Origin: Actinomycetes bacterium
Lineage (GTDB): Bacteria > Actinomycetota > Acidimicrobiia > Acidimicrobiales > RAAP-2
Assembly: GCA_021782915.1 (NCBI GenBank)
Contig: JAJXUK010000009.1
Location: 1-64,000, forward strand
Length of the DNA: 64,000 bases
Direction: 5' to 3'
Shown: positions 3,806 to 28,248 of the stretch, in pieces
Numbering within the stretch: the first letter of the stretch is position 1
How the letters are laid out: every line of letters begins with the position of its first letter
Notes under the pieces: generated by a model
What the model was told of the DNA's origin: nothing
The model's database searches: none
The model's input: the letters and a program-made list of their open reading frames with translations, nothing else
Program-made: the position numbers and the translations under genes

Positions 3806-3818
3806 GGGGAAATAGCAA

Positions 3819-5219: not shown

Positions 5220-5248
5220 GCGACTGACCCGATAGGAGGAATGGCCCG

Positions 5249-7053: not shown

Positions 7054-7056
7054 GTG

Positions 7057-8163: not shown

Positions 8164-8180
8164 CGTCACGAGGAGGACTC

Positions 8181-11120: not shown

Positions 11121-11430
11121 GCGGGGCCTAGGCGGAGGTCCTGGGCACTGTCTTGTTGCATTGAGATCGTGGACGAAGAATTGCCGCGCGGGTGTCAACC
11201 CGCAGGGGGCTCGAAACCTTGACGAACTCACAGCGCAGTCGCCGTGTTCACGCTGTGCCATCCGATTGACGAGGTTGACGGTGCCGGTCTCGGCGATGCG
11301 TCAACGTCACCGACGGGTCGAAGCTGGCTAGGCGTCCCGGACGGCTTCGATCCCGTCTCTAGACACGCAGTCGTTGACGTGGCTGAGGCCCACCACACCA
11401 CGGCTCATGCAGTGGCGCCGTCCCCCAGCC
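11121..11430. other. Convergent intergenic gap, no gene seen
   Basis: 310 bp between convergent genes. The only structure noticed is a 6-bp hairpin with a 4-nt loop (11188-11203, GCGGGT/ACCCGC) without a T-run. It may be a weak terminator of the dehydrogenase operon. Open frames here have no family resemblance. Confidence 0.4.
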
Positions 11431-12885: not shown

Positions 12886-12913
12886 TTCGACGCCGGCCGT
12901 GGTTCCTTACAAT
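12886..12913 (+). promoter_or_regulatory. Leaderless promoter of the ROK-like kinase
   Basis: TTCGAC (12886-12891) and TACAAT (12908-12913) are separated by 16 nt. The GTG start at 12920 lies 6 nt after the -10 box, so transcription would begin at or next to the start codon. No ribosome site precedes this GTG. Confidence 0.55.
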
Positions 12914-12919
12914 GCCAAA

Positions 12920-13687
12920 GTGCCTCTCACGACCTCGGACAGTGATTGCGTTCTGAGCGTTGACGTCGGTGCTACTTCGATCAAGATCGCGGTCTTTGAT
13001 CGACGCGGTGAGTTGCGCGGAAGGACGAATCGCGTTCCGACTCCGTATCCTTGTCCGCCGAAGCGCATGGTCGAGGACTTGACAACGCTGGTGGTTGATG
13101 CGCCGTGTCGTCACGTTGCCGTCGGCTTTCCGGGCGACATGGACTCGGGCATTGTCCTTGAGCCGGGCAACTTGGCGCGCGAGGGCGGCATCGGCACGCC
13201 TGTTGACGCAGAGATCGATGCTCAGTGGCGCGGCTATCACCTCGAGGCGGCATTGCGCGCGGCCACCGGGCGCGACGTACGCGTGGTCAACGACGCGACG
13301 CTCGCCGCCCTGGGAGCCAGCTTGGGCGAGTCGCGCGAACTCGTCTTTACGTTGGGCACGGGATTCGGGATCGCCCTGGTGGTCGACGGCACGCTGGTGC
13401 GCATTCGCGACGTGGGCGCTGAGGTGTTCGCCGACGAGGAGACCTACGACGAGGCGCTCGGCGAGCCGTCGCGGGCGCGAGACGCTCAGCGCTGGCAGCA
13501 ACTCCTCCATCGAGCCGTGGCCGACTTCGTCGAGGAGTTCGACGCACGCATCATCCACTTCGGGGGTGGCAACGCTCGTCACGTCCAGGCGCGCGACTTC
13601 GAGGACGTGGCCGAGCGAGTCGTCGTCAATGACGACCTGTCCACGCTGCGCGGCGCGCTGCGACTCTTCGTGGCCGACGTCGCCTAG
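12920..13687 (+). CDS. ROK/polyphosphate-glucokinase-like sugar kinase
   Basis: 255 residues from GTG 12920. Phosphate-1 motif LSVDVGATSIKIAVFD, then HVAVGFPGDMDSG, VVNDATLAALG with the catalytic Asp, adenosine motif FTLGTGFGIALVVDG and a C-terminal IIHFGGGNARH. The ROK zinc cluster (CxCGxxGC) is absent and the overall shape is closest to polyphosphate glucokinase-type ROK proteins. The start follows from a leaderless promoter; the much longer upstream reading has no ribosome site. Next to a SIS isomerase and hexosaminidase genes it may phosphorylate glucosamine or GlcNAc, which is inference. Confidence 0.8.
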   Translation: MPLTTSDSDCVLSVDVGATSIKIAVFDRRGELRGRTNRVPTPYPCPPKRMVEDLTTLVVDAPCRHVAVGFPGDMDSGIVLEPGNLAREGGIGTPVDAEIDAQWRGYHLEAALRAATGRDVRVVNDATLAALGASLGESRELVFTLGTGFGIALVVDGTLVRIRDVGAEVFADEETYDEALGEPSRARDAQRWQQLLHRAVADFVEEFDARIIHFGGGNARHVQARDFEDVAERVVVNDDLSTLRGALRLFVADVA

Positions 13688-13741
13688 GACGAGGTGGCGC
13701 CGGCCGCTACGCTACGCACGACCGGCGAGGAGAGAACCGCG

Positions 13742-14764
13742 ATGACCCACTTCGAGGCCGAGATCCGCAGTCAGGGCGCCGTGCTGCGCGCGCGCGCCGA
13801 GGCGAGCGCCGAGGCCGTCGCGCGCCTGGCGAGCTCCTGGGACGAGATCGACTACGCCCTCGTGGCCGCGCGCGGGTCCTCGGACAACGCGGCTCGCTAC
13901 TTCCAGTACGTGCTCGGCCAGCGGGCCGGGCTCCTCGTCGCCCTGGCGGCGCCGTCGCTGTTCGAGGACTATCGCCACATGCGACTCGGTCGCGCGGGCG
14001 TGCTGGCGATCTCTCAGTCGGGGCGCTCGCCGGGCATGGTCGAGGTCCTGCGCACCGCTCAAGCCCAGGGTCGACCCGCGAGCGCGATGACCAATTACGC
14101 CGACTCGCCCCTCGCCCAGGGCGCCGACGTGCTCGTCGACCTCGCGGCGGGCTCCGAGCGGGCGATCGCCTCGACCAAGACCTTCTCGGCGACCTGGCAC
14201 GCCCTGAGTCAGCTCGCGTCCCAGCTGAGCGCGACGCCCCTCGAGGGTCTCGACGAGCTGGGCGAGGCCGTGGACCACGTGGCCGACTGGGCCCTGGGCA
14301 GTGCGCTGCCGATCGAGCTGCTCGACGCGCCGCGGGGCCTGACCATCATTGGGCGCGGCGTGGGCTACGCCGCGGCCTCCGAGACCGCCCTCAAGGTGCG
14401 CGAGGTCTCCGGCCTGCGCGCGGAGGCCTTCGCCGCCTCGGACTACCTGCACGGGCCCATCGGAGCCGACGGGGCCCAGAGTGCGACCCTTCTGCTGCTC
14501 ACCGACGAGCTGACGGACGCGGTCGCCGAGGAGCTGCTCATGACGGTCCGCGCGCTGGGCGCGAGCACCGTCGTCGTGCGCCCGCCCCAGCGACGGGCCG
14601 TGGCCTGCGACGCGCAGGTCGTCCTGCCCAGTGACGCGCCGAACTGGGCGCTCGGGCTCCTGGAGGTCGTGCTGGGCCAGGTGCTGACGCTGCGCCTGGG
14701 TGAGCGACGGGGCCGGGCGATTGACACCTCTCCGGTGCTGTCCAAGGTGACGACGAGCGCGTGA
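13742..14764 (+). CDS. Double-SIS sugar isomerase/deaminase (NagB-II/AgaS/GlmS isomerase-like)
   Basis: 340 residues with two SIS domains. The first holds LVAARGSSDNAARYF, LAISQSGRSPGMVEVL and AIASTKTFSATW. The second holds LTIIGRGVGYAAASETALKV, REVSGLRAEAF and HGPIGADGA. This is the isomerase half of GlmS without the glutaminase, a form seen in glucosamine-6-phosphate deaminase (NagB-II) and AgaS. GGCGAGGAGAG precedes ATG 13742. With the preceding kinase and the GH20 operon downstream, conversion of GlcN-6-P to fructose-6-P is the likeliest role. Confidence 0.85.
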   Translation: MTHFEAEIRSQGAVLRARAEASAEAVARLASSWDEIDYALVAARGSSDNAARYFQYVLGQRAGLLVALAAPSLFEDYRHMRLGRAGVLAISQSGRSPGMVEVLRTAQAQGRPASAMTNYADSPLAQGADVLVDLAAGSERAIASTKTFSATWHALSQLASQLSATPLEGLDELGEAVDHVADWALGSALPIELLDAPRGLTIIGRGVGYAAASETALKVREVSGLRAEAFAASDYLHGPIGADGAQSATLLLLTDELTDAVAEELLMTVRALGASTVVVRPPQRRAVACDAQVVLPSDAPNWALGLLEVVLGQVLTLRLGERRGRAIDTSPVLSKVTTSA

Positions 14765-14790
14765 GGGCCCCGGGCATTCGCGTAGTTCAC

Positions 14791-14811
14791 AGAGATTGTG
14801 AAAATCTCTCA
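14791..14811 (+). promoter_or_regulatory. Candidate DeoR operator upstream of the hexosaminide operon
   Basis: TTGTGAAAATCTCTCA (14796-14811) matches 13 of 16 positions of an element before deoR at 23022-23037. It is embedded in a perfect 7-bp inverted repeat, AGAGATT (14791-14797)/AATCTCT (14803-14809). It lies just upstream of the -35 box. Confidence 0.55.
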
Positions 14812-14819
14812 TTTCTGAG

Positions 14820-14848
14820 TTGCCGGGTGTGAAGTCTTCACATAGTGT
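14820..14848 (+). promoter_or_regulatory. Promoter of the Dpp-type transporter operon, with palindrome in the spacer
   Basis: TTGCCG (14820-14825), 17 nt, TAGTGT (14843-14848). The spacer contains the perfect palindrome TGTGAAG-T-CTTCACA (14828-14842), a second candidate operator positioned to block polymerase. The start codon is at 14959, giving a leader of about 100 nt. Confidence 0.5.
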
Positions 14849-14958
14849 GGCTGCGTGATCGCCGTCGCCGGCAGATTCGGGTGTTCGTGACCGACGGCGC
14901 AGCGCTCGCGGTAGGTGAACGGGGGACCGACCGGGACCCACGAGGGAGGAGTTTCACT

Positions 14959-16632
14959 GTGAGGAAGAAGTTAAGGGCGGGTCTCTTCAGTTCAGCCTTG
15001 GCCCTGGTGGCCGGGATGTGTGTCGCGGTGGTCCCGGGCGTGCTGGGCACGAGCGTGGCCGGTGCCGCGGCGCAGGTCCCGTTGAACCTGGCCAACGAGC
15101 AGGGCATGTTGTGGCCGTGTACGTTCAATCCATTCATTCCATCGTCGTCGCCGTACTCGGTGGGCGTGACCTACGAGACGCTCGAGTTCGTGAACTCACT
15201 CCAGAGTGGCAAGGTGACGCCGTGGCTCGCGACCGGCTCGGCGTGGAGCAACAACAACAAGACCTTGACCTTCACGATCCGCCACGGCGTGACCTGGTCC
15301 GACGGCAAGCCCTTCAGCGCGGCCGACGTCGTGTACACCTTCAACCTGTTGAAGAAGTACCCGGCCCTGGACGCCAACGCCGTGTGGTCGGTCCTGTCGA
15401 GTGTCAAGCAGTCTGGTTCGAACAAGGTCGTGTTCAACTTCTCGACCTCGGCGGTGCCGTACTTCTACTACGTGGCTGGCCAGGTGCCGATCGTGCCCCA
15501 GCACATCTGGAGCAAGATCGCTAACCCGGTGTCGAACCCGATCTCGAATCCGGTGGGCACGGGCGGCTACCTGATGAGCAAGTGCACGCCCCAGAACATC
15601 CAGTGGACGAACAACCCGCACTACTGGCAGGCGGGCAAGGCCGTCGTCAAGACGGTGAACATGCCGGCGTTCCTGTCCAACAACACCTGCAACGAGTACC
15701 TCGCGACGGGTCAGTCCCAGTGGGGCTCGCAGTTCATCCCGAACATCAAGAGCTACTACGTGGCCAAGAAGCCGGGCAACACCTACTGGTTCCCACCCGT
15801 GGCGAACGTGTCGCTCTTCCCGAACCTGACCCAGGCGCCGCTCAATGACGTCAAGGTCCGCCAGGCCATCAGCTACGCGATCGACCGGCCGACGGTCTCC
15901 AAGATCGGCGAGTACGGCTACGAGCCGCCCGCGAGCCAGACCGGCATCGTGAGCCCGACGTTCTCCTCGTGGACCTCGTCCTCGGCCGTCGCGGCCCAGG
16001 GCACGAGCTACAACCCGAGCAAGGCCGTCGCGCTGCTGAGCTCGGACGGCTACAAGAAGGCCAGCGATGGCATCTTCGCCAAGAACGGCAAGCAGCTGAA
16101 CCTGACGATCATCACCAACGGCGGCTACTCGGACTGGGTCGCCACCGTCCAGGTCATCGCCCAGGAGCTCAAGAAGGTCGGCATCAACGCGACGGTCAAC
16201 CCCATCGCGTCGACGAACTTCTACTCGGACGTCTACGCCGGCAAGTTCCAGCTGGCCTACAACGTCGAGTCCGGTGGTCCGACGCCGTTCTACGAGATGC
16301 GCCAGTGGCTCTACTCGAAGAACTCCGCCCCCATCGGCACGGCCGCGGCCTCGAACTGGGAGCGCTTCAACAGCCCGAGCGTGGACGCGCTGCTCAACCA
16401 GTACGGCGCCACGACCAGCCCGAGCCAGCAGCACTCCATCGTCAACCAGCTCCAGATGGTCATGGTCAAGCAGGCCCCGATCATCCCGGTGCTCGAAGAG
16501 GTGGACTGGTTCCAGTACAACTCGAAGGCCTTCACCGGCTTCCCCACCGCGACTAACCCCTACGCACAGCCGGGCCTGTACAACATCCCGGACTGGGGCT
16601 ACGTGCTGGACAACCTGAAGCCCGCCAAGTAA
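14959..16632 (+). CDS. Family 5 (Dpp/Opp-type) ABC solute-binding protein, probable hexosaminide binder
   Basis: 557 residues from GTG 14959, fixed by GGGAGGAG 7 nt upstream. Signal peptide KKLRAGLFSSALALVAGM with later AVAGAAAQ-like processing; the cysteine at GMC is not a good lipobox. SBP_bac_5 signatures: TLTFTIRHGVTWSDGKPFSA, ADVVYTFNLL, and DVKVRQAISYAIDR. The family is named for peptides but many members bind cello-, chito- or other oligosaccharides. It leads an operon ending in a cytoplasmic hexosaminidase, so a chito-oligosaccharide or related glycan is the inferred ligand. Confidence 0.9.
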   Translation: MRKKLRAGLFSSALALVAGMCVAVVPGVLGTSVAGAAAQVPLNLANEQGMLWPCTFNPFIPSSSPYSVGVTYETLEFVNSLQSGKVTPWLATGSAWSNNNKTLTFTIRHGVTWSDGKPFSAADVVYTFNLLKKYPALDANAVWSVLSSVKQSGSNKVVFNFSTSAVPYFYYVAGQVPIVPQHIWSKIANPVSNPISNPVGTGGYLMSKCTPQNIQWTNNPHYWQAGKAVVKTVNMPAFLSNNTCNEYLATGQSQWGSQFIPNIKSYYVAKKPGNTYWFPPVANVSLFPNLTQAPLNDVKVRQAISYAIDRPTVSKIGEYGYEPPASQTGIVSPTFSSWTSSSAVAAQGTSYNPSKAVALLSSDGYKKASDGIFAKNGKQLNLTIITNGGYSDWVATVQVIAQELKKVGINATVNPIASTNFYSDVYAGKFQLAYNVESGGPTPFYEMRQWLYSKNSAPIGTAAASNWERFNSPSVDALLNQYGATTSPSQQHSIVNQLQMVMVKQAPIIPVLEEVDWFQYNSKAFTGFPTATNPYAQPGLYNIPDWGYVLDNLKPAK

Positions 16633-16677
16633 TCCGCACCATTTAGACAGAGTCATACGCTGAGCTGAGCCGGGGAG

Positions 16678-17661
16678 ATGAGGTTTCTAGTACGCCGTGT
16701 GGGCTTCCTACTGGTAGCCCTGTGGGTCGCCCTCACGGTGAACTTCTTCATCCCCCGGCTCATGCCCGGCAATCCGGCCGAGGCCATGATGGCCAAGTTC
16801 CGGGGCCACGTGAACCCGGTCGCGCTGCACGCGCTCGAGGTGGCCTTCGGCGTCAACACGCACCAGAGCCTGGCCTCGGCCTACGTGCAGTACGTGGGCA
16901 ACACGCTGCACGGCAACCTCGGGATCTCGACGAGCTACTTCCCCCTCCCGGTGGCGACGGTGATCATGCGGGCCCTGCCGTGGTCCCTGGGCCTCGTGGG
17001 GCTGAGCACGGTGCTCGGCTTCCTGGTCGGCACGGCCATCGGGGCGATCGCGGCCTGGCGTCGCGGCGGGGTCCTGGACTCGGTCCTGCCGCCGACCTTC
17101 GTGGTGATCTCGGCCTTTCCGTACTTCTGGGTGGGCCTGCTGTTCATCTGGCTCTTCGCCCTGACCCTCAACTGGTTTCCCCTGCTGGGCGGCTACTCCG
17201 AGACCGCGACGCCGGCCTTGACGTGGTCCTTCGTCGGCGACGTGCTCGTGCACGCGGTGCTGCCCGCCTTCACGATCCTGCTGACGTCCATCGGCGGCTG
17301 GATCCTGACGATGCGCAACAACATGATCACCGTGGTCGCCGAGGACTACGTCAAGATGGCTCGCGCCAAGGGCCTCAAGCCGCGCCGGATCCTCTGGCAG
17401 TACGCCGGGCGCAACGCCCTGCTGCCCAACCTCACGGGATTCGCCATGTCGTTGGGCTTCGTGATCTCCGGGGCCATCCTGGTCGAGTACGTGTTCAACT
17501 ATCCCGGACTGGGATTCATGCTCCTGCAGGCGGTGGAGAACGAGGACTACCCGCTCATGCAGTCGCTGTTCCTCTTGATCACCGTGGCGGTCCTGTTCGC
17601 GATCTTTCTGTCCGACGTGGCCACGGCGGCGCTGGACCCGCGCACCCGGAGTAGCTCATGA
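16678..17661 (+). CDS. ABC transporter permease (DppB-like)
   Basis: 327 residues. It begins RFLVRRVGFLLVALWVAL, the DppB-type first span, and has about six spans. The EAA-like loop is DYVKMARAKGLKPRRILWQY. ATG 16678 directly follows GGGGAG, an unusually short spacing. It couples to the next permease by ATGA. Confidence 0.92.
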   Translation: MRFLVRRVGFLLVALWVALTVNFFIPRLMPGNPAEAMMAKFRGHVNPVALHALEVAFGVNTHQSLASAYVQYVGNTLHGNLGISTSYFPLPVATVIMRALPWSLGLVGLSTVLGFLVGTAIGAIAAWRRGGVLDSVLPPTFVVISAFPYFWVGLLFIWLFALTLNWFPLLGGYSETATPALTWSFVGDVLVHAVLPAFTILLTSIGGWILTMRNNMITVVAEDYVKMARAKGLKPRRILWQYAGRNALLPNLTGFAMSLGFVISGAILVEYVFNYPGLGFMLLQAVENEDYPLMQSLFLLITVAVLFAIFLSDVATAALDPRTRSSS

Positions 17662-18554
17662 GCTGGCTGCGCGCCGCGGGTCGCCGACTGCGTCGGGCTG
17701 GGGTGTTCCTGCGCAGAGACAAGAAGGCGGCGGCGGGCTCGGTCATTCTGCTCCTGCTGCTCATCGTGGCGATCTTCCCCTCGTGGTTCACCCCGGACGA
17801 CCCCGCGGCCGAGATCTACACCCCGGGCATCGGGCTGTCCTGGGCTCACCCGCTGGGCACGACCTCCTTCGGCCAGGACGTCTTCAGCCAGGTCATCGCC
17901 GGCACGCGCCAGAGCGTGTTCATCGCCCTCATCGTCGGGCTGCTCTCGACGATCCTCTCGGTGGTCATCGGCGTCTCCGCGGCCTACCTGGGTGGCTGGA
18001 TCGATGACGTGCTCTCGATGTTCACCGACGTAGTGCTCGTGATACCGACGTTCCCGCTCATCATCGTGATCACCGCGTATCTGAAGAACGCGAGCTTCTG
18101 GCTGATGGTGATGGTCCTGGTCTTCACGGGCTGGTCCTACGGGGCGCGCCAGCTGCGCGTGCAGGCGCTCTCGCTGCGCAATCGGGACTATCTGCTCGCC
18201 GCACGCGCTCGCGGAGAGTCCGCGCTCTACGTGATCTTCGTCGAGCTGCTGCCGCCGATGACCTCCTTGATCGTGGCCAACTTCCTGGGCGCGGCGCTCT
18301 ACGCCGTCCTGGCCGCCTCGGGCCTGCAGTTCGTGGGCCTGGGCAACATCAACGCTCAGTCGTGGGGCACGATGCTCTACTGGGCCCAGAACAACGAGGC
18401 GCTGGCGACCGGCCTGCCGCTGTGGGCCCTGGCGCCCGGCATCGCGATCGCCGTGCTGGGCAGCGCGCTGGCCCTGCTCAACTACGCCTTCGACGAGGTC
18501 GCGAACCCCGCGCTGCGTCCGGTGTCGCGTCGCAAGGTGAGGGCCCTGTCGTGA
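17658..18554 (+). CDS. ABC transporter permease (DppC-like)
   Basis: 298 residues. N-terminal RRDKKAAAGSVILLLLLIVA, then the family's HPLGTTSFGQDVFSQVIAGT segment and the EAA loop DYLLAARARGESALYVIFVE. It overlaps both neighbours by 4 bp. It pairs with the DppB-like subunit to form the membrane channel. Confidence 0.92.
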   Translation: MSWLRAAGRRLRRAGVFLRRDKKAAAGSVILLLLLIVAIFPSWFTPDDPAAEIYTPGIGLSWAHPLGTTSFGQDVFSQVIAGTRQSVFIALIVGLLSTILSVVIGVSAAYLGGWIDDVLSMFTDVVLVIPTFPLIIVITAYLKNASFWLMVMVLVFTGWSYGARQLRVQALSLRNRDYLLAARARGESALYVIFVELLPPMTSLIVANFLGAALYAVLAASGLQFVGLGNINAQSWGTMLYWAQNNEALATGLPLWALAPGIAIAVLGSALALLNYAFDEVANPALRPVSRRKVRALS

Positions 18555-19516
18555 GCCTGCTGAGCGTGTCCGATCTCTACGTGGAGTACGAGACCGCGGC
18601 CGGACCGGCCCGCGCGGTCAGCGGGGTGTCACTCGAGCTGGAGCCGGGCGAGTTCCTGGCCATCGTCGGCGAGTCGGGCTGCGGCAAGTCGACGTTGCTC
18701 TTCGCCATCGCCCAGCTGCTGACCTACCCCGCGCGCGTGGTGGGCGGATCGGTGCACTTCGACGGCGTTGATCTGACCTCGCTCAGGCCCGAGGAGCTGC
18801 GTCAGCATCGCTGGCGTGACTTCTCGGTGGTGATGCAGAGCGCCATGAACGCACTCAACCCCACGCTGTCCATTGGTGCTCAGCTCGTGGACGTGTGCCG
18901 GGCCCACACCGACTGGGACGAGAGGCGCATCGCCGAGCGCAGCGCGGAGGTGCTCGCCATGGTCTCCATCGACGCGGCGCACCTCAAGAGCTACCCGTTC
19001 CAGCTCTCGGGTGGCATGCGCCAGCGCGCCATGATCGCCATGGCCCTGCTGCTGGAGCCGAGGCTGGTGATCATGGACGAGCCGACGTCGGCCCTCGACG
19101 TCGTGGCCCAGCGGTCCCTGATGCGACAGATCCAGGCGCTGCGTGAGCGCCTGGGGTTCTCGGTGCTCTTCGTGACCCACGACATGAGCGTGGTCTCGCA
19201 CTTCTCGGACCGCCTGGCCGTGATGTACGCCGGCGAGGTGGTCGAGCTGGGCGCGACGCGCCAGGTCTTCGACCGCCCGCAGCACCCGTACTCCCACGGG
19301 CTGATGGACGCGTTTCCGTCGCTGCTCGGCGCGCCGAAGCCCCTCACCGGCATCGCCGGCAACCCGCCGTCGCTGGTGGACCCGCCGGCCGGCTGCCAGT
19401 TCGCCCCGCGCTGCGCGCAGGCGATGGACGTGTGCACGCTGGTGCGCCCCGAACTCGTGCAGGAGGACGGCCGGGCCGTGCGCTGCCACCTGATTCACCC
19501 GGTGGACCGACCGTGA
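18551..19516 (+). CDS. ABC transporter ATP-binding protein (DppD-like)
   Basis: 321 residues from GTG 18551, which overlaps the permease stop by 4 bp (GTGA). Walker A GESGCGKSTLLFAI, signature LSGGMRQRAMIAMAL, Walker B LVIMDEPTSALDV. The C-terminal oligopeptide-transporter extension carries cysteines (CQFAPRCAQAMDVC) that in this family can hold an iron-sulfur cluster. Confidence 0.92.
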   Translation: MSLLSVSDLYVEYETAAGPARAVSGVSLELEPGEFLAIVGESGCGKSTLLFAIAQLLTYPARVVGGSVHFDGVDLTSLRPEELRQHRWRDFSVVMQSAMNALNPTLSIGAQLVDVCRAHTDWDERRIAERSAEVLAMVSIDAAHLKSYPFQLSGGMRQRAMIAMALLLEPRLVIMDEPTSALDVVAQRSLMRQIQALRERLGFSVLFVTHDMSVVSHFSDRLAVMYAGEVVELGATRQVFDRPQHPYSHGLMDAFPSLLGAPKPLTGIAGNPPSLVDPPAGCQFAPRCAQAMDVCTLVRPELVQEDGRAVRCHLIHPVDRP

Positions 19517-20481
19517 GCGAGCCCGTCCTGCAGGTTCAGGGGCTCACCCGGCACTTCCGCGTCGGGGGGTTCCGCACCCGTGGCCTGCTGCACGCGACCG
19601 ACGAGGTCAGCTTCGACGTCGGCGCGGGCGAGATCGTCGCGCTGGTGGGCGAGTCGGGTTCGGGCAAGTCGACCATCGCGCGCGTGCTGGCGGGGCTGTA
19701 TCCGCCCTCGGCGGGCCGGGTCGTCTTCGAGGGCCGCGACGTGGGGCGCCGCCCGAGCCGCGAGGTGCGCGGTCGCATGCCCATGGTCTTCCAGGACCCC
19801 TTCGGCTCGATCAACCCGGTCTTGCGCGTGGGCCACAGCATCGCGCGCTCGCTCAAGTTGCACCGTCCAGAGTTGAGCGGCGCCGAGCGCGAACAGGAGG
19901 CGGTCGCCCTGCTCGAGCGCGTCGGGCTGATCCCGGGCGCCGACGTGCTGCGCCGCTTCCCTCACGAACTCTCCGGTGGCCAGCGTCAGCGCCTGGGATT
20001 CGCCCAGGCGCTGGCCTCGCACCCGTCCCTGATCCTGGCCGACGAGCCGGTCTCCATGCTGGACGTGTCCATTCGCATCGGCCTCTTGAACGTGATGCGT
20101 GACCTGCGTGACTCTGAGGGCGTCTCGATCCTGTACATCACCCACGACTTGGCCAGTGCACGCTACGTCGCCGACCGCATGATCGTCCTGTACGCCGGGC
20201 GCATCGTCGAGCAGGGCGACACCGAGCGCGTCATCACGACGCCCCAGCACCCCTACACGCGCCTGCTGATGTCCACGGCGCCCGATCCGCGTCTGCCCCT
20301 GGCCGACGACGCCTCGGTCACGGATCTCGGCGAGCCGCCCAAGGTGATCAATCCCGGCCCGGGCTGTCGCTTCGCGCCGCGCTGCCCGCTGGTCACCGAG
20401 CAGTGCCGCGCGTCCACGCCGGCGCTCGTGACGCTGCGCTCGAATCAGCGCGTCGCCTGCTACGCGGTCGAGGACGAGTGA
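19513..20481 (+). CDS. ABC transporter ATP-binding protein (DppF-like)
   Basis: 322 residues from GTG 19513 (4-bp overlap). Walker A GESGSGKSTIARVL, signature LSGGQRQRLGFAQAL, Walker B LILADEPVSMLDVS, and the C-terminal cysteine extension CRFAPRCPLVTEQC. It forms a heterodimer with the preceding ATPase. The stop overlaps the hexosaminidase start, so import and hydrolysis are produced together. Confidence 0.92.
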   Translation: MSEPVLQVQGLTRHFRVGGFRTRGLLHATDEVSFDVGAGEIVALVGESGSGKSTIARVLAGLYPPSAGRVVFEGRDVGRRPSREVRGRMPMVFQDPFGSINPVLRVGHSIARSLKLHRPELSGAEREQEAVALLERVGLIPGADVLRRFPHELSGGQRQRLGFAQALASHPSLILADEPVSMLDVSIRIGLLNVMRDLRDSEGVSILYITHDLASARYVADRMIVLYAGRIVEQGDTERVITTPQHPYTRLLMSTAPDPRLPLADDASVTDLGEPPKVINPGPGCRFAPRCPLVTEQCRASTPALVTLRSNQRVACYAVEDE

Positions 20482-22001
20482 CGAGCCTGCTGCCGCGCCC
20501 GCGCCTGGTCCTGGCCGGCGAGGGGGCCGTGACGTGGCGCTCGCCCCTTCGCGTGCGCGTGGCGCCCGTCCTGGCGGAGGCGCTCGACGTCTTCGCCGAG
20601 GACCTCGCCGCGGCGGTGGGCTGGGCGGTCGACGTGGTCGACGACTCCGCCCCGGCGGACCTGGAGATCATGCTCAACGAGCGTCTCGGTGCCGAGGCGT
20701 ACTGCCTGCGCGTCGAGGACGTGACCCGAGTGGAGGCGGCAGGCGCCGCGGGTGCCAGCTACGCGCTCACCACGCTGCGCCAGCTGGGCCCCGACGAGCT
20801 GTGGGGCCGCGCCGGGCAGCTGGAGCGCTGGCGGGTGCCGCGCGTGTCCGTCGAGGACGAGCCGCGATTCGCGTGGCGCGGCGCGCACCTGGACGTGGCG
20901 CGCCACTTCTTCGACGTGGCGACGATTCTTCGCTTCGTGGAGCTGCTCGCGGCGCACCGGCTGAATCGGCTCCACCTGCACCTCAACGACGACCAGGGCT
21001 GGCGGGTGGAGATTCCGGGCTGGCCCCGACTCACGCAACGTGGCGCCCAGCGCCGATCCTCGCCGGTGGGCCACGAGAGCGAGGGACGGGACGACGGTCT
21101 GGCCCACGGCGGATACTTCAGCGCCGAGGACCTCGCGCACCTGCGTGAGTACGCCCGGCGCCGACACGTGATGATCGTGCCGGAGATCGATCTGCCCGGC
21201 CACGCCCAGGCGGCGATCGCGGCCTACCCCGAGCTCGGCTGCACGAGCGAGCCCGTGGAGGTCTGGACTCGTTGGGGGATCTCCGAGCACGTGCTGAACG
21301 TCGAGCCGGTCGCCTTCGCCTTCGCCACCGACGCGCTGAGCCACGTGGCGCGGCTCTTTCCCGAGAGCCCGGTGCACATCGGCGGCGACGAGTGTCCGAC
21401 GAGTGAGTGGCAGGCCAGTCTCGCGGCTCGGCGCGTCATGCACGAGCACGGCTTCAGCGACGTGCGCCAGCTGCAGGGGCTCTTCACCACGCGTCTCGCC
21501 CAGGTGCTGCACTCGCTCGGTCACGAGGTCCTGGCCTGGGACGAGGTGCTCGACGCGGACGTGCCGGCCGGCACGGTGATCGTCGCCTGGCGACACGCCG
21601 ACAAGGGCCTCGAGGCCGCCCGGCGGGGCCTGGACGTCATCATGGCGCCGATGCAGTGGCTGTACCTCGACTGGCTCAACAGCGACCGACCCGATGAGCC
21701 GGTCGCCATCGCGCCCCCGCCGGCGGTCACGACCTGGCAGCGCGTGTACCAGTTCGTGGTGGTGCCGCCCGAGCTCGAGGCCGAGCTGGTCGCGCGCGTG
21801 CGCGGAGCCCAGGCCCAGCTGTGGACCGAGTACATCGCCACGCGCGAGCACCTGGACTACATGGCCTTTCCGCGCCTGAGCGCGTTCAGCGAAGTGGTGT
21901 GGGGAACCGCGGGCGAGCTCGACGAGTTTGAGGGCCGACTGCGCACGCACCTGGGTCGTCTGGACGCCATGGGTGTGGCCTATCGGCGCCTAGACGAATG
22001 A
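20478..22001 (+). CDS. GH20 beta-N-acetylhexosaminidase, cytoplasmic
   Basis: 507 residues from GTG 20478 (GTGA overlap). An N-terminal GH20b-like domain is followed by the catalytic barrel: FAWRGAHLDVARHFF, NRLHLHLNDDQGWRVEIPGW, MIVPEIDLPGHAQA, and the catalytic Asp-Glu pair in VHIGGDECPTSEWQ. A late substrate-site tryptophan motif is QLWTEYI. No signal peptide is present, so it should cleave imported oligosaccharides inside the cell by the substrate-assisted mechanism, releasing GlcNAc or GalNAc. Its position after a complete importer supports this. Confidence 0.93.
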   Translation: MTSLLPRPRLVLAGEGAVTWRSPLRVRVAPVLAEALDVFAEDLAAAVGWAVDVVDDSAPADLEIMLNERLGAEAYCLRVEDVTRVEAAGAAGASYALTTLRQLGPDELWGRAGQLERWRVPRVSVEDEPRFAWRGAHLDVARHFFDVATILRFVELLAAHRLNRLHLHLNDDQGWRVEIPGWPRLTQRGAQRRSSPVGHESEGRDDGLAHGGYFSAEDLAHLREYARRRHVMIVPEIDLPGHAQAAIAAYPELGCTSEPVEVWTRWGISEHVLNVEPVAFAFATDALSHVARLFPESPVHIGGDECPTSEWQASLAARRVMHEHGFSDVRQLQGLFTTRLAQVLHSLGHEVLAWDEVLDADVPAGTVIVAWRHADKGLEAARRGLDVIMAPMQWLYLDWLNSDRPDEPVAIAPPPAVTTWQRVYQFVVVPPELEAELVARVRGAQAQLWTEYIATREHLDYMAFPRLSAFSEVVWGTAGELDEFEGRLRTHLGRLDAMGVAYRRLDE

Positions 22002-22981
22002 CGGACGCGGCGAGCACCCTGGCCGCGATGCGCGCGAGCGTCGCCCGCGAGGCCGCCGAGCCCGAGCGTGTCGCGCGAACGTCCGCGCAGCAGATCGGTG
22101 AGTCCCTCACGGGGCTGGGCCTGGCGGCCGAGGACGTCGAGGAGGCGTCGGCGCACTGGCGGGACCTCGCGTCCAGGTCCGAGTGGTGCGACCTGCTGGC
22201 CGGCGTGCTGGCCCAGGTGCAGCGTCAGCAGGGTCAGCCGGATGAGCCGGTGGCCATCTGGGACGACCTGGATGGAGCCGGCGACCTGGGTCGACTCTTC
22301 TATCTCTACGTGGCGGCCCTGAGTGCGGGCTGGACCGCGACGTACCTGGGCCGCTCGGGGTTCCCGTCCGAGGTCATCGCCCAGAGCCTGGGCACCCTGG
22401 CCCGGCACGTGCGGGTGCACCGTGACAAGCGAGGCACCCTGGGAGTGGACGCGGGCTGGTGGATCCTGCTGATGCTGCGCGGGGATCTGGTCACCGTGGG
22501 CGCACTGCAGTATCACCGCGTGAACCTCGGGCGGGGCACGCTGTCACCCCAGCCCTGGTACGACGAGCGCGCCGCCGCGGACCTCGGGGCTGGGTTTCGG
22601 GCCGGAGACGCCAGCGTGGGGCTGCACATACCCGATGGAGCCGACCTCTCGGCGCGCTCGGTGGCGTGCTCGCTGGCCGCAGCGCGCGACCTGCTCGATC
22701 GCTGCTGGCCGGTCAGCCAGCGCCGCCTGGTGACCTGTCAGTCCTGGATGCTGGACGAACGCCTGGGCGACTGGCTCGACGCGACGAGCAACCTGGTGCG
22801 CTTCGGCGCGCTCTTCACGCTGGTGCCGGGCTGGCTGGAGGGCGACGAGGACGTGCGCGAGTTCGTCTTCCGCCCGCGCGCGAGCGGGCCCAGCACGCTC
22901 CAGGGCGTGGTCGCGGGGCTCTTCGAGCGCGGCGAGCACTGGCACGTGCGCACCGGGTGGCTCGCCTGGGAGAGGCGCTAG
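21998..22981 (+). CDS. NAT_N/GNAT_C acyltransferase-domain protein
   Basis: 327 residues, ATGA overlap with the GH20 gene. The C-terminal half has VGLHIPDGADLSARSVACSL, AAARDLLDRCWP, LVTCQSWMLDERLGDWL and SNLVRFGALFTLVPGW. This pattern (HIP..., C.SW.LD..L, SN...F) matches the GNAT_C domain of actinobacterial acyltransferase-domain proteins of unknown substrate. The helical N-terminal half fits the accompanying NAT_N domain. Co-translation with a hexosaminidase suggests acyl transfer to or from an amino-sugar product, but no substrate can be read. The family assignment is by recall. Confidence 0.75.
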   Translation: MTDAASTLAAMRASVAREAAEPERVARTSAQQIGESLTGLGLAAEDVEEASAHWRDLASRSEWCDLLAGVLAQVQRQQGQPDEPVAIWDDLDGAGDLGRLFYLYVAALSAGWTATYLGRSGFPSEVIAQSLGTLARHVRVHRDKRGTLGVDAGWWILLMLRGDLVTVGALQYHRVNLGRGTLSPQPWYDERAAADLGAGFRAGDASVGLHIPDGADLSARSVACSLAAARDLLDRCWPVSQRRLVTCQSWMLDERLGDWLDATSNLVRFGALFTLVPGWLEGDEDVREFVFRPRASGPSTLQGVVAGLFERGEHWHVRTGWLAWERR

Positions 22982-23021
22982 GTCGTCGGTGTGCAATTCT
23001 GTGAGGTCTGCTCCGGTGAAG

Positions 23022-23037
23022 TTGTGAGAAACTCTCA
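23022..23037 (+). promoter_or_regulatory. Candidate DeoR operator upstream of deoR
   Basis: TTGTGAGAAACTCTCA contains the inverted repeat TGAGA-AAC-TCTCA. It shares 13 of 16 bases with the element at 14796-14811. It ends 8 nt before the -35 box of the deoR promoter, consistent with autoregulation. Confidence 0.55.
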
Positions 23038-23045
23038 ATAAGGGA

Positions 23046-23074
23046 TTGCAGAATGTTAAAAAATCACATATCCT
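23046..23074 (+). promoter_or_regulatory. Leaderless promoter of deoR
   Basis: TTGCAG (23046-23051), 17 nt, TATCCT (23069-23074), then 6 nt to ATG 23081. No ribosome site is present, so the message probably starts at the ATG. Confidence 0.6.
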
Positions 23075-23080
23075 CGAGCC

Positions 23081-23866
23081 ATGGACTCTAAGACGCGTCG
23101 CGGCATCATCGCGGAGCGACTGCGTCGCGAGGGCGAGGCCTCGATCGCCGAGCTGGCCACGCACTTCGGCACGAGCGAGATGACCATTCGGCGCGACCTG
23201 GACCTGCTCGAGATCGAGGGCCTGGCGCGCCGGGCGCGCGGCGGGGCCATCTCGGTCCAGGGACGCGGCTTCGAGCCGCCGGTCCTGCAGCGCTCCACGG
23301 AGCAGGCCGAGGCCAAGCGACGCATCGGCGCCGCGGGTGCGGCCACGCTGCGCAACAACGAGACGATCGTGCTGGACGTGGGCTCGACCACCCACGAGCT
23401 CGCGCGCGCGATCCCCGAGACGCTGAGCATCACCGCGATCACCAGCTCGCTGCTGATCGCCACCGAGTTGGCGACCAAGCCACTCGTGCGCACCATCGTC
23501 ACGGGAGGCGTGGTGCGCCACGGCGAGATGAGTCTCGTGGGCACGCGCGCTATCCGGTCCTTTGACGACCTGCACAGCGACGCGGTCTTCCTCGGCGTGG
23601 CGGGCATCAGCGACGAGGCCGGCCTGACCGAGTACAACCTCGACGACGCCGACGTGAAGCGCGCGGCGCTGGCCTCGGGCCGACGCAAGGTCGTGCTGGC
23701 CGACGCGACCAAGATCGGGCGCGTCGCACTGGTGACGGTGGCCCCCGCGCACACCATCGACGTGCTCATCACGAACGCCTCGCCGCGCAACGAGACCATT
23801 GAACGTCTGCGCGAGCAGGACGTGGAAGTCATCCACGTCGAGCCCTTCGAGGAGGAGTCCCGATAA
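23081..23866 (+). CDS. DeoR/GlpR-family transcriptional regulator
   Basis: 261 residues. N-terminal HTH: RRGIIAERLRREGEASIAEL, then FGTSEMTIRRDLDLLEIEGL and RARGGAI. The C-terminal DeoR sensor fold contains TIVLDVGSTTHELARAI, VFLGVAGISDEAGLTEYN and DATKIGRVAL. Such regulators sense sugar phosphates. It heads an operon with BtpA-like, FGGY kinase and SDR genes, and the shared operator points to control of the upstream hexosaminide operon as well. Confidence 0.93.
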   Translation: MDSKTRRGIIAERLRREGEASIAELATHFGTSEMTIRRDLDLLEIEGLARRARGGAISVQGRGFEPPVLQRSTEQAEAKRRIGAAGAATLRNNETIVLDVGSTTHELARAIPETLSITAITSSLLIATELATKPLVRTIVTGGVVRHGEMSLVGTRAIRSFDDLHSDAVFLGVAGISDEAGLTEYNLDDADVKRAALASGRRKVVLADATKIGRVALVTVAPAHTIDVLITNASPRNETIERLREQDVEVIHVEPFEEESR

Positions 23867-24669
23867 TGTCCCGCTTCCGCACGATCTTCCCGACCGTCGA
23901 CAAGCCCTTGATCGCCATGGCGCACGTGCCACCGCTGCCGGGCACGCCGCTCTACGACGCGTCCGGCGGGGTGCAGGGCCTGATCGATCACGTCCGGCGC
24001 GACGTCGATCTGTTGCTCGAGGGAGGCTTTGACGCCATCCTCTTCTGCAACGAGGGCGATCGGCCGTATCAGCTGCACGCCGGGCTCGAGGCCTCGGCGG
24101 TGATGTCTCGCGTGGTCAGCGAGTGTCGCCCGAGTGACCGGCCCTACGGCGTGGACTTTCTCTGGGACGCCCAGTGCGCGCTGGCCATCGCGGTGGCCAC
24201 CGACGCGGCGTTCATGCGCGAGGTGGTCACCGGCTCCTGGGAGTCCGACATGGGCGCCTGGAACCCCGACGCCGCGACGCTGCTGCGCAACCGGCGCCAC
24301 TTCGCCCGCGAGGACCTGGCCATCTTCGCCAACGTGACGCCCGAGTTCGCCTCGAGTGTCGGTGGGCGCTCGCCCGCCCAGATGGCGCGCTCGACGGTGG
24401 TCTCCAGCCTGGCCGACGTGATTCTCGTCTCCGGACCCATGGCGGGCTCCGAGCCGGACGTGGGCACGGTGGCCGACGTGCGCGAGGCGCTCGACCCGCA
24501 GATCCCGGTCCTGCTCAACACCGGGGCGAAGGCGGGCACCATCCAGCGCTACCTGAAGCACGCCGACGGCTGCATCGTGGGCAGCGACCTCAAGCGCGAC
24601 GGCTACACCTGGAACGAGGTGGACCCGCAGCGGGTCACGCGCTTCATCGACGCGGCGCGCAGTGCCTGA
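23866..24669 (+). CDS. BtpA/SgcQ-family TIM-barrel protein
   Basis: 267 residues; ATG 23866 shares one base with the deoR stop. Family features: PLIAMAHVPPLPGTPLYD, GGFDAILFCNEGDRPYQ, PYGVDFLWDAQCALAIA, and VLLNTGAKAGTIQRYLKHAD near a phosphate-binding C-terminus (CIVGSDLKRDG). BtpA relatives include the photosystem-I biogenesis protein and SgcQ of sugar loci. Their chemistry is not established, but this context favours a sugar-phosphate aldolase or isomerase role. Confidence 0.85.
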   Translation: MSRFRTIFPTVDKPLIAMAHVPPLPGTPLYDASGGVQGLIDHVRRDVDLLLEGGFDAILFCNEGDRPYQLHAGLEASAVMSRVVSECRPSDRPYGVDFLWDAQCALAIAVATDAAFMREVVTGSWESDMGAWNPDAATLLRNRRHFAREDLAIFANVTPEFASSVGGRSPAQMARSTVVSSLADVILVSGPMAGSEPDVGTVADVREALDPQIPVLLNTGAKAGTIQRYLKHADGCIVGSDLKRDGYTWNEVDPQRVTRFIDAARSA

Positions 24670-26152
24670 GCCAGGCGGACTTCTCCTCGGCGTGGACGTG
24701 GGCTCCTCGGGAGTCAAGGCGATCCTGCTCGCGCCGGCGAGGGGGATCGTGGCCTCGGCGACGCGTTCGGTGAGCCTGTACAGCGAGCGAATCGGATGGG
24801 CCGAGGCCGACGCCGAGGAGTGGTGGGCCAGCCTGTGCTCGCTGGTTCCCGAGCTGCTCGCGCTCGCCGGCGCGCGCAAGGAGGACGTGCGCGCCGTGGC
24901 GGTCAGCGGCATGGTCCCGGCGGTTCTGGTGACCGACGAAGACGGCAACCCGCTGCGTCGCGCGATCCTGCAGAACGACGCGCGAGCCGTCGAGGAGATC
25001 CGCGAGCTGCGCGAGGAGTTGGCCGGCACCGACCTGCTGGGCCGGACCGGCTCGGTCCTCTCCCAGCAGTCCGTCGCGCCGACGCTGCGCTGGCTGGCGC
25101 GTCACGAGGCCCCCGTGTGGGCCGCGGCGCGCGTCGTGCAGGGCTCGTACGACTGGCTGGCTCGGCGCCTCGGCGCGATGGTGCACGTGGAGGAGAACTG
25201 GGCGCTGGAGAGCGGCCTGTTCAGCCTGCAGGGTGAGCAGCTCGATGAGGTGTGGGCGTGTCTGCCTGAGTCGGTGCCCCAGATCGGGCCCGTGCGACGC
25301 CCGGGTGACGTGGTCGGCTCGCTCAGCCTGGATGCGGCCCGGGCCACGGGGCTCGCCCCGGGCACGCCCATCGTGGTGGGCGGAGCCGACCACGTCCTGT
25401 CGGCCTACGGCGCCGGACTCGTCGAGACGGGTGACTGTCTGGTCAAGTTGGGCGGGGCGGGCGACATCCTGGCCGTCGCGGACACGCCGCTCGTGGACGC
25501 GCGCCTCTACCTGGACAAGCATCCTCTGGCCGGGGCGTGGCTTCCCAACGGGTGCATGGCCACCAGCGGCTCGCTGCTGCGCTGGGAGCAGTCGCTGCTC
25601 GGAGGCGTGTCGCTCGAGGAGCTGGACGCCGAAGCCGCGCACAGCGCCCCGGGCGCGCTGCTGGCCCTGCCGTACTTCCTCGGCGAGAAGACGCCCCTGC
25701 ACGACCCGGACCTGCGCGGCGGGGTGCTCGGGCTGCACCTGGCCAGCACGCGGGCCGACCTGCACCGCGCGTTCCTCGAGAGCATCGCCTACGGATTCCG
25801 CGCACACGTCGACGTCTTCGCCGAGCGCGGACTGCACGTGCGGCGCACCTGGGTCACGAACGGGGGATCCCGCTCGCGTCTGTGGCGCGAGATCCTGGCC
25901 GACGTGCTCCAGCTCGAGCTGATCTCGCTGATCGAGCACCCGGGCGCGTCCTTCGGCGCCGCCGTGCTGGCCGGTGTCGGCGTGGGCCTCATCGCGGACC
26001 CGTCCTACGTCGAGGGCGCCCTGGCGCGCGCTGAGCTGATCACGCCCAACGAGGCGCGCCGCGCGCTCTACGAGGAGCGCTACGCCCAGTTCCGCGAGCT
26101 GAGCGCCGTGACGACGAGCCTGTCGCACGCACTAGCAAGGAGCAACGAATGA
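24662..26152 (+). CDS. FGGY-family carbohydrate kinase (xylulokinase-like)
   Basis: 496 residues from GTG 24662, overlapping btpA by 8 bp. N-terminal ATPase motif LLGVDVGSSGVKAILLAPA; substrate-side VRAVAVSGMVPAVL; C-terminal VVGGADHVLSAYGAGLVE and WVTNGGSRSRLWREILADVL. The length and motifs fit xylulo-/ribulo-/erythritol-type kinases. It sits between a barrel enzyme and an SDR, so it probably phosphorylates a keto-sugar or polyol. Confidence 0.9.
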   Translation: MPEPGGLLLGVDVGSSGVKAILLAPARGIVASATRSVSLYSERIGWAEADAEEWWASLCSLVPELLALAGARKEDVRAVAVSGMVPAVLVTDEDGNPLRRAILQNDARAVEEIRELREELAGTDLLGRTGSVLSQQSVAPTLRWLARHEAPVWAAARVVQGSYDWLARRLGAMVHVEENWALESGLFSLQGEQLDEVWACLPESVPQIGPVRRPGDVVGSLSLDAARATGLAPGTPIVVGGADHVLSAYGAGLVETGDCLVKLGGAGDILAVADTPLVDARLYLDKHPLAGAWLPNGCMATSGSLLRWEQSLLGGVSLEELDAEAAHSAPGALLALPYFLGEKTPLHDPDLRGGVLGLHLASTRADLHRAFLESIAYGFRAHVDVFAERGLHVRRTWVTNGGSRSRLWREILADVLQLELISLIEHPGASFGAAVLAGVGVGLIADPSYVEGALARAELITPNEARRALYEERYAQFRELSAVTTSLSHALARSNE

Positions 26153-26910
26153 CCAGCCCCATCGCCGCCGTCACCGGAGCCGGATCGGGAATCGGCGCCG
26201 CCATCGCCCGCGAGCTCGCTCGGCGTGGGCACCGGGTCGTGGTCACCGACGTGGACGTGGACGCGGCCACGCGCGTGGCCGAGGAGATCGACGGTGTGGC
26301 CCTGGGCCTGGACGTCACCGACCCCGTGGCCTGCGACGAGGTCGTGCACGAGATCTTCGAGCGCTTCGGCACGCTCGACGTGTGGGTCTCCAATGCGGGC
26401 ATCTCGAAGATGCAGCGATTCCTCGACGTCTCACCCGGGGACCTCGCGCGCACCTTCGAGGTCAACACCTACGGGGTCTTCTACGCGGGCCAGTCGGTCG
26501 CGCGCGAGATGGTCGCGCGTGGGATCCGTGGCTGCATCGTCAACACGGCCTCGATGGCGGCCAAGCAGGGCCGCGTCCCATTCCTGTCGGACTACGTGGC
26601 CAGCAAGTTCGCGGTGCTGGGCCTCACGCAGGCCATGGCCTTCGAGCTCGCCGAGCACGGCATCCGCGTCAACAGCGTCTGTCCCGGCTTCGTCGCCACG
26701 CCGATGCAGGAGCGTGAGCTCGCCTGGGAGGCCTCGCTGCGCGGCATGGAGCCGGGTGCGGTGCGACAGCTCTGGATCAACGACACGCCGATGAAGCGCC
26801 TCGAGACGCCCGAGGACGTTGCGCGCGTCGTCGGCTTCCTCGTCTCCGAGGACGCGGCCTTCGTCACCGGCGAGGCGATCTCGGTCAACGGCGGCGCCTT
26901 CATGGACTAG
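26149..26910 (+). CDS. SDR-family NAD(P) oxidoreductase
   Basis: 253 residues, ATGA overlap with the kinase. Cofactor motif VTGAGSGIGAAIARELA, acidic residue in VVVTDVDVD suggesting NAD preference, NAG motif in VSNAGIS, catalytic Ser in VNTASMAAKQG and YVASK Tyr/Lys pair. C-terminal FVTGEAISVNGGAFMD is classical SDR. It likely oxidises a polyol or sugar alcohol whose keto product the kinase takes. Confidence 0.93.
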   Translation: MTSPIAAVTGAGSGIGAAIARELARRGHRVVVTDVDVDAATRVAEEIDGVALGLDVTDPVACDEVVHEIFERFGTLDVWVSNAGISKMQRFLDVSPGDLARTFEVNTYGVFYAGQSVAREMVARGIRGCIVNTASMAAKQGRVPFLSDYVASKFAVLGLTQAMAFELAEHGIRVNSVCPGFVATPMQERELAWEASLRGMEPGAVRQLWINDTPMKRLETPEDVARVVGFLVSEDAAFVTGEAISVNGGAFMD

Positions 26911-28171: not shown

Positions 28172-28234
28172 GGAGACTCCTTTTCCCTGACGCTAGGGGC
28201 CAATGGCGGGCGTCACGGCGACTCGCTACTCTTA

Positions 28235-28248
28235 CGAACATATGTTCG
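28235..28248. promoter_or_regulatory. LexA (SOS) box
   Basis: CGAACATATGTTCG is a perfect palindrome and fits the actinobacterial/Gram-positive SOS consensus CGAAC-N4-GTTCG. It overlaps the ATG (28242) of imuA' and lies 64 bp from the SRAP start. A -10-like TACTCT at 28227-28232 precedes it. Confidence 0.85.

Follow-up and report, generated by a model that had tools for sequence, protein, structure and literature searches.

Gene content of the locus

We analysed a 64-kb stretch of actinomycete DNA (positions 1 to 64,000 of contig JAJXUK010000009.1, order Acidimicrobiales; hereafter, the window) from a genome of 2.15 Mb in 84 contigs that is 97% complete. Within it, at ~12.9 to 26.9 kb, lies a block of 13 genes, all on the + strand, in which the gene for a GH20 beta-N-acetylhexosaminidase is followed by one for an acyltransferase with NAT_N and GNAT_C domains (hereafter, NAT), a predicted glucosaminide N-acetyltransferase. 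The conserved pairing of these two genes, and the step in amino-sugar breakdown that it suggests, are our subject. The order of the block is ROK kinase, double-SIS protein, solute-binding protein, two permeases, two ATPases, GH20, NAT, DeoR regulator, BtpA, FGGY kinase, and SDR oxidoreductase. We label the genomes compared with G and their loci or contig stretches with L, the genome of the window being G000.

Five 4-bp overlaps link the six genes from the first permease to NAT (16678-22981), namely ABC permease 1 (16678..17661; Pfam BPD_transp_1), an OppC-like ABC permease 2 (17658..18554), ABC ATPases 1 and 2 (18551..19516 and 19513..20481; all from Pfam), GH20 (20478..22001), and NAT (21998..22981). 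An earlier note, made from the sequence of the window, had described a cluster of ROK, double-SIS, family-5 importer, GH20, and NAT genes ending in a six-gene overlapping operon, and the Pfam matches and coordinates bear this out. The GH20 protein scores 333.9 bits against Pfam GH20, has both a GH20 and a GH20b domain, and matches the solved protein 3rcn with E 1.7e-122; its catalytic D-E pair lies within a GGDE motif, which we take to be the catalytic D-E motif of the family. No signal peptide was visible in this protein when its sequence was judged by eye, without a predictor. Pfam and profile scans found no glucosaminidase gene among the 13 genes, the block has no NamZ or GH3 gene, and promoter and terminator scans gave no excess over shuffled sequences.

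The acyltransferase belongs to a family that acylates glucosamine

Both Pfam domains of NAT score above their cut-offs (GNAT_C, 79.6 bits against 22.8; NAT_N, 58.7 bits against 27.8). Its solved relatives are Tcp24/Orf11* and Dbv8, which it matches with a best E of 1.7e-21 in phmmer and 1.7e-91 in a profile search, where all remaining rows have an E of 0.12 or more. The fold points the same way: An AlphaFold (AF2) model of NAT with a mean pLDDT of 92.4 matched five Orf11*/Dbv8 structures in Foldseek (TMq 0.71-0.74, E ≤4.4e-16), with the next match at E 0.17. The titles of the matched structures name complexes with decanoyl-CoA, octanoyl-CoA, and teicoplanin, as well as a W163A mutant (6iix). 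Across 14 alignment rows, His210 of NAT is invariant and aligns with the His that is replaced by Ala in 4mfk, and the nearly invariant Trp154 aligns with the W163 mutated in 6iix. A review (PMC8987122) describes the acylation of N-glucosamine by Tei11/Dbv8 after deacetylation by Tei2/Dbv21. Judged by its sequence and modeled fold, NAT is thus one of a group of enzymes that attach acyl groups to glucosamine, and the label "unassigned" that the earlier note had given to the NAT_N/GNAT_C protein no longer applies, since it has assignable relatives in Orf11*/Tcp24 and Dbv8, the N-acyltransferases for the glucosamine of teicoplanin and A40926.

The setting of NAT in the window is a different one from that of these relatives. 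It has no glycopeptide gene cluster around it, its neighbors being the importer, GH20, DeoR, and sugar genes. Nor is it an HGSNAT-type acetyltransferase with multiple membrane spans, as NAT has the NAT_N and GNAT_C domains only, in the Orf11*/Dbv8 fold. The best match to the NAT of locus L025 in a plasmid collection is a Nonomuraea gerenzanensis protein encoded beside vanY (40.8% identity) that agrees with the Dbv8 chain when the letters are compared. Three actinomycetes with large genomes, all from a single genus that looks Streptomyces-like by eye, have a NAT_N/GNAT_C gene at a conserved site among housekeeping-type genes and away from sugar genes (L070, L071, and L073); part of the family thus probably has another role.

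GH20 and NAT are linked in many genomes

GNAT_C was found in 14 of 397 genomes of the order, 9 of 396 of the phylum, and 4 of 14 of the genus. A six-frame search found GH20 in 11 of the 14 NAT-bearing order genomes, and in 8 of these 11 it lies within 10 kb of NAT (linked: G000, G256, G293, G390, G031, G290, G329, and G361; unlinked: G198, G279, and G355). By position alone, 0.096 genomes would be expected to have GH20 this close, a figure that treats related genomes as independent, so that a tree is the better guide. One genome that the six-frame search counted as lacking GH20 (G258) has a weak one (27.2 bits, cut-off 22.3), placed after NAT and sharing 4 bp with it.

The arrangement itself recurs. 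GH20 precedes NAT, and the two genes share 4 bp, in the window and in L021, L023, L027, L065, L067, and L068, while the reverse order is seen in L020 and, with an overlap and a weak GH20, in L024. A further 16 NAT loci included seven from genomes already covered, and L069, apparently the remaining part of a gene that is truncated in L065; among the eight that remained, seven have GH20 beside NAT and one (L055) does not. On a NAT tree of 33 rows, 16 of them GH20-linked, the linked rows are scattered: the linkage label needs eight changes, at least four of which are forced by well-supported branches, and more than one inherited case of linkage is therefore indicated. The label was set by hand, with L028 (GH20 ~3.5 kb away) and L022 left unlabelled, and the tree does not include L059 and L157. 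The pairing also reaches a second phylum: In Subdoligranulum (Bacillota), one locus (L154) holds ABC permeases (the second by eye), GH20, GH20C, and NAT, and another (L155) holds nagA, NagB-like, GH20C, Gfo/Idh-like, and NAT genes, the NagB and Gfo/Idh names being given by eye. Accordingly, the GH20-GNAT_C linkage that the earlier note had proposed to survey is conserved, though not universal. Judged by title and the start of the abstract, none of the matches listed from the open-access literature describes a GH20-NAT pairing, which is weak evidence of novelty.

The block as a whole is also kept, and is not a product of chance. By blastp and tblastn with the window genes, all 13 are found in L026 (G390) and 12 of 13 in both L027 (G293), where SDR is absent, and L031 (G256); ROK was not found in L031 or L079. 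Three more contigs of metagenome-assembled genomes, cut by contig ends, carry 10 (L067), 8 (L068), and 5 (L066) of the genes. Our home-made gene caller found no genes in L026, L123, L078, L146, or L147, and in L031 and L118 it found few; tblastn replaced it at L026, L031, L118, L146, and L147, and L123 and L078 were left out.

The importer resembles chitooligosaccharide transporters

The solute-binding protein of the importer (SBP, 14959..16632, GTG start; Pfam SBP_bac_5) is of family 5 and of oligosaccharide type. Its best solved matches are the chitooligosaccharide-binding proteins VhCBP of V. campbellii (E 7e-66) and VcCBP of V. cholerae (E 1e-60), followed by the Thermotoga sugar binders 4pft/4pfy (E 6e-57); a nickel binder follows at E 4.9e-25. 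Peptide-named entries score E 1.9e-20 or weaker, leaving aside the Vibrio entries, 2o7i, and 1vr5 and 4jsd, the last two of which we take to be oligosaccharide binders like 2o7i. According to parts of PMC8449061, 4pft/4pfy is a Thermotoga mannooligosaccharide binder and 2O7I a cellooligosaccharide binder, residues N204, W363, D365, and W513 of VhCBP are completely conserved in five oligosaccharide binders, and R436/F437 are the likely basis of its GlcNAc specificity. At the four conserved positions, the window protein has N, Y, D, and Y, both Trp being replaced by Tyr, and the equivalents of N204 and D365 are kept in all 12 aligned binding proteins, including that of L119.

The window protein is thus nearer to the cluster C-IV sugar binders (VhCBP/VcCBP) than to peptide binders, and its sequence marks the importer as an oligosaccharide importer of a known kind. 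The earlier description of a peptide-type importer stands at the Pfam level, in that the protein is of family 5, and fails beyond it, as the nearest solved relatives are the Vibrio proteins. We rejected a true peptide transporter, because these closest relatives bind chitooligosaccharides.

Kinase and deaminase candidates without NagA

Two genes at the head of the block encode candidates for the handling of released sugars. The ROK-family sugar kinase-like protein (12920..13687; Pfam ROK, 50.3 bits; the start is uncertain, and GTG 12920 was used) has the polyphosphate/ATP glucomannokinase 1woq as its nearest solved relative (phmmer E 1.4e-19). The usual sugar-binding motif of ROK proteins is E-x-G-H. 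At this position the window protein reads D-V-G-A, and two relatives read D-V-G-G or D-V-G-A; given this common change, the sugar of the kinase may be unusual. The double-SIS protein (13694..14764; Pfam) is a NagB-II-like glucosamine-6-phosphate deaminase candidate that scores 157 bits against NF046059, below the equivalog cut-off of 430, so that NagB-II membership is not assigned. Its nearest solved proteins are SIS proteins, including the glucosamine-6-phosphate deaminase 8eol (E 3.7e-32).

The earlier note had also remarked that no nagA-type deacetylase was visible, and this absence extends well beyond the block. The window block has no NagA, the sole match to TIGR00221 in the window genome scores 19.3 bits against a cut-off of 225.65, and none of the 14 genus genomes has a NagA above that cut-off. 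Outside the genus, NagA exceeds the cut-off in 7 of the 10 other NAT-bearing genomes and in 6 of 8 genomes reached via loci, among them the block-bearing G764 and G765; G763, which bears a piece of the block, has none. In G764 and G765, NagA lies in a second locus with an importer of its own, with a SIS gene beside it in G764 (L141). The G765 gene (L142, 8697-10703) encodes a 668-amino acid fusion of a MurQ/GKRP-like SIS domain and an amidohydrolase that scores as NagA, and adjoins a second family-5 importer and a gene that by eye looks AnmK-like; the NagA frame of G764 is of similar length. NAT itself shares loci with NagA: L022, L023, and L069 add SIS and BadF-type kinase genes to the two, L060 adds a BadF-type kinase, and the Bacillota locus L155 has nagA. 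The block is thus compatible with NagA in relatives, but the genus of the window has no NagA above the cut-off.

ChbG/YdjC was dropped as the missing deacetylase, as the genome holds no match. Four Amidohydro_1 matches occur in the genome, of which two were read (L001 and L004), the one in L004 being enamidase-like by eye.

A proposed re-acetylation step

GH20 enzymes use the 2-acetamido group of the substrate itself in catalysis, so a glucosamine at the non-reducing end should stop them. Elsewhere among chitin users, glucosaminidases take such caps off, of the GH9 type in Vibrio and as GlmA in archaea. We propose that NAT instead N-acetylates oligosaccharides capped by glucosamine so that GH20 can cut them, which would make it a soluble bacterial counterpart of lysosomal HGSNAT, and we place modestly better than even confidence in this reading. 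The block would then be a DeoR-controlled catabolic unit for amino-sugar glycosides. The oligosaccharide-type ABC importer would take up a small beta-linked amino-sugar oligosaccharide, from which GH20 would remove non-reducing-end GlcNAc inside the cell. An end capped by free glucosamine, derived from chitosan-like material or from wall polymers that have been de-N-acetylated, would stop GH20; NAT would then move an acetyl group from acetyl-CoA to this glucosamine and restore the substrate. The released sugars would be phosphorylated by the ROK kinase and deaminated by the SIS enzyme. The gene order and its conservation, the family of NAT, its linkage to GH20, the operator-like sites common to both operons, and the lack of NagA are observed, whereas we infer the acetyl-CoA donor, the glucosamine-capped acceptor, the DeoR control, and all of the enzyme activities. 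A re-acetylation step would fit the occurrence of NAT in two phyla, next to GH20 and also next to NagA genes.

A number of observations weigh against this step. An Aspergillus oryzae GH20 is reported in PMC8170477 to have chitosanase and chitinase activity, so glucosamine may not always stop GH20. The best-studied relatives of NAT use long acyl-CoAs on glycopeptides, and the window NAT is a divergent member, with a GNAT_C score of 81.6 bits against up to 154 in the phylum-genome search. The GlcNAc-specific residues of VhCBP (R436/F437) are not kept in the window binding protein, which has N/W by MAFFT and gap/S by pairwise HMMER alignment, and the imported sugar is therefore uncertain. With NagA missing, no established route would take the freed GlcNAc to the deaminase of the block. 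On the NAT tree, the linked label shows mild clustering, as few changes being reached in 18 of 500 shuffles, and support is weak for 13 of the 30 inner branches. GH20 also occurs without NAT in two genus-mates, G110 and G310. Lastly, many NAT stretches, some of them short, contain no GH20: in the Bacillota, those of Subdoligranulum (L156 and L157), Paenibacillus (L152), and Peptoclostridium (L153, where NAT lies beside sugar ABC genes); those of the large-genome actinomycetes (L070, L071, L073, and L074); and L022, L025, L029, L030, L032, L055, L072, L075, L076, L150 (the Dbv8 locus), L151, L158, and L159.

Alternative explanations

The four genes downstream of NAT bear on an alternative that concerns the imported compound. 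Overlaps of 1 to 8 bp connect the DeoR-family regulator (23081..23866; AgaR/GlpR-like in profile scans, below those cut-offs), the BtpA/SgcQ-family protein (23866..24669; TIGR00259, 198 bits, cut-off 153.4), the XylB-like FGGY sugar kinase (24662..26152; TIGR01312, 288 bits, below the cut-off of 380), and the SDR oxidoreductase (26149..26910; profile scan). A BtpA gene is present in exactly the four NAT-bearing genomes of the genus and in none of the 10 others, so that the presence of the amino-sugar part and that of the DeoR-BtpA-FGGY-SDR part vary together in the genus.

Paired operator-like sites on the + strand precede both operons. A 16-base pattern occurs at 14796, before the SBP gene, and at 23022, before DeoR, and nowhere else in the 64 kb with up to two mismatches; it was written from these two sites themselves, so its value of 0.07 is not a fair test. 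Exactly 31 bp on from each site, counted from start to start, lies a second, 17-bp element, giving pair 1 (14796-14812 and 14827-14843) and pair 2 (23022-23038 and 23053-23069). A matrix built from ten elements of relatives, picked by eye and excluding the window's own sites, is a fairer test: It ranked the four window sites at the top (29.9, 23.8, 22.8, and 16.0), with the weakest barely ahead of the next score (15.5). Pairs with the 31-bp spacing are also present upstream of DeoR in L027, L066, and L067 and upstream of the SBP gene in L068; before DeoR, L026 has a spacing of 30-32, and L031 has one site. No pair was found before the SBP gene of L026, L027, or L031. These sites suggest one DeoR regulon over both operons, at least in the window genome. 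The nagA elsewhere under the same operator that the earlier note had named as a refutation did not turn up, there being none in the genome and no operator match at the NagA loci of G764 and G765. A strong operator-like site also lies just before a BtpA gene (7664) at 7520-7536 of L118, whose genome belongs to another family and yielded no NAT.

The import of a mixed glycoside, an amino sugar joined to a polyol or ketose, is a tentative possibility and is compatible with the role proposed here for NAT. GH20 would split the compound, ROK and SIS would take the amino sugar, and SDR, FGGY, and BtpA would take the aglycone, for example a pentitol. The match of BtpA to the NAT-bearing genomes, the sites before both operons, and the lack of the GlcNAc-specific residues in the SBP all speak for it. 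So do two other loci: L119 combines BtpA-FGGY-SDR with an importer of this type (53-64% identity) but has no GH20 or NAT, and in L118, BtpA lies near a weak FGGY match (25%) and transport ATPase-like genes, with names of ribose-type transport and epimerase given by eye. The quartet may, however, be a mere adjacent cassette under one regulator, and both the absence of SDR from L027 and the missing operator pairs before the SBP genes of L026, L027, and L031 count against the idea.

A second alternative concerns the missing deacetylation. In the archaeal chitin pathway, a PIG-L-type enzyme deacetylates free GlcNAc before phosphorylation, and a core PIG-L amidase could do so here, which we consider rather unlikely. 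In a search of 15 family genomes, every one showed four to five PIG-L matches, and two overlapping PIG-L amidase genes lie in the window itself (39638-41274). These two are MshB/Mca-like, below cut-off, and a role in mycothiol is as likely for them; the matches occur irrespective of NAT or GH20, and PIG-L was thus rejected as a deacetylase co-inherited with the block. A close PIG-L pair is seen in 14 of the 15 genomes, and G193 has one match and a fragment at a contig end.

A third alternative, unlikely in our view, is that NAT acylates a small amino sugar (GlcN, GlcN-6-P, or GalN) or another breakdown amine in salvage or detoxification. The family does acylate glucosamine amines, and NAT accompanies importers, PfkB, and GH4 in L025 and L055, where no GH20 lies within reach, and in L029, whose contig piece has none (PfkB and GH4 were identified by Pfam in L028). 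The acceptor of the known relatives, however, is a large molecule that carries its glucosamine in glycosidic linkage, NAT overlaps GH20 by 4 bp in seven GH20-NAT loci and one reverse-order locus, and the acetylation of free GlcN would undo the work of NagA in L022, L023, L060, L069, and L155. Next to PfkB and GH4, L025 (11513-13090) and L055 (11786-13546) encode proteins of 525-586 amino acids that look alike by eye; the L025 protein has no Pfam match at E 0.001.

We think it very unlikely that de-N-acetylated amino-sugar polymers are used through an acetyl relay free of NagA, in which NAT acetylates the caps by way of CoA, GH20 frees GlcNAc, and the acetyl group is then recovered from this GlcNAc by NAT or a partner; in that case, NAT and GH20 would together form an exo-glucosaminidase that passes GlcN to the kinase and the SIS deaminase without an amidohydrolase. 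Highly improbable, lastly, is the replacement of NagA by NAT, where the acetyl group of GlcNAc or GlcNAc-6-P would pass to CoA in reverse and feed the SIS deaminase: A CoA-using enzyme for the right amine is present, and importer, GH20, NAT, and SIS occur together in four genomes of a genus in which none of 14 has NagA above the cut-off, but forming a thioester from an amide is energetically uphill, and we rejected it as a leading idea because NagA sits in the five NAT loci named above and elsewhere in G764 and G765. The hint in the earlier note that NAT might handle the acyl group in the stead of nagA is accordingly unlikely to be right, the family being one that adds acyl groups; its observation of the locus is confirmed and its interpretation partly supported.

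Outside the block, positions 1-12000 of the window have a G+C content of 57.6-64.3% in six 2-kb steps, against 65.6-75.2% over 14-36 kb, and carry by eye PfkB-like, GntR-like regulator, sugar ABC importer, and Gfo/Idh dehydrogenase genes; this part may be a separately acquired sugar island. Three successive genes at 28203-33054 resemble by eye an ImuA'-ImuB-DnaE2 mutagenic repair cassette.

Relation to known systems and implications

The proposed re-acetylation step draws on parts that are known from other settings. With the glycopeptide N-acyltransferases Orf11*/Tcp24 and Dbv8, the window NAT has in common the NAT_N+GNAT_C pair, the fold, the His and Trp positions, and, as proposed, a glucosamine amine as acceptor; unlike them, it lies in a catabolic operon with GH20 and outside any antibiotic cluster, and its donor is presumably acetyl-CoA. 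The Vibrio (GlcNAc)2 operon includes a cytoplasmic GH20 and a GlcN kinase. The window resembles this system in its family-5 oligosaccharide-binding protein, Opp/Dpp-like importer, and intracellular hexosaminidase, and differs from it in the binding protein (key Trp to Tyr, R436/F437 to N/W) and in the addition of NAT and DeoR-BtpA-FGGY-SDR to the Vibrio gene set. In lysosomes, HGSNAT acetylates a terminal glucosamine that the N-acetylhexosaminidase NAGLU then cleaves off, which is the logic proposed here for NAT and GH20; HGSNAT is an unrelated membrane protein, and the linkage and sugar polymer differ too. The window shares sugar kinase-like and NagB-II-like genes with the NagK-NagA-NagB route, NagA being missing above the cut-off in the genus. 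From peptidoglycan recycling by NamZ/NagZ, L022 combines NAT with NagA, SIS, NamZ, and a GH3 enzyme, whereas the window block is without NamZ and GH3.

Two surprises of the earlier note shrink in this light, as the kind of importer and the family of NAT are already known. What is new would be a better-defined prediction, that of a bacterial glucosaminide N-acetyltransferase step. If true, it would be a bacterial version of a step of the human lysosome, carried out by a family whose characterised members, as far as we found, tailor antibiotics, and it would give a function to the catabolic NAT_N/GNAT_C members in two phyla. It would also explain the use of partly deacetylated chitin or wall fragments without a glucosaminidase, and it would point to catabolism as a setting in which relatives of the teicoplanin acyltransferases work, with no direction of descent implied. 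The genus of the window, free of NagA, would then offer a clean system in which to follow the fate of the acetyl group.

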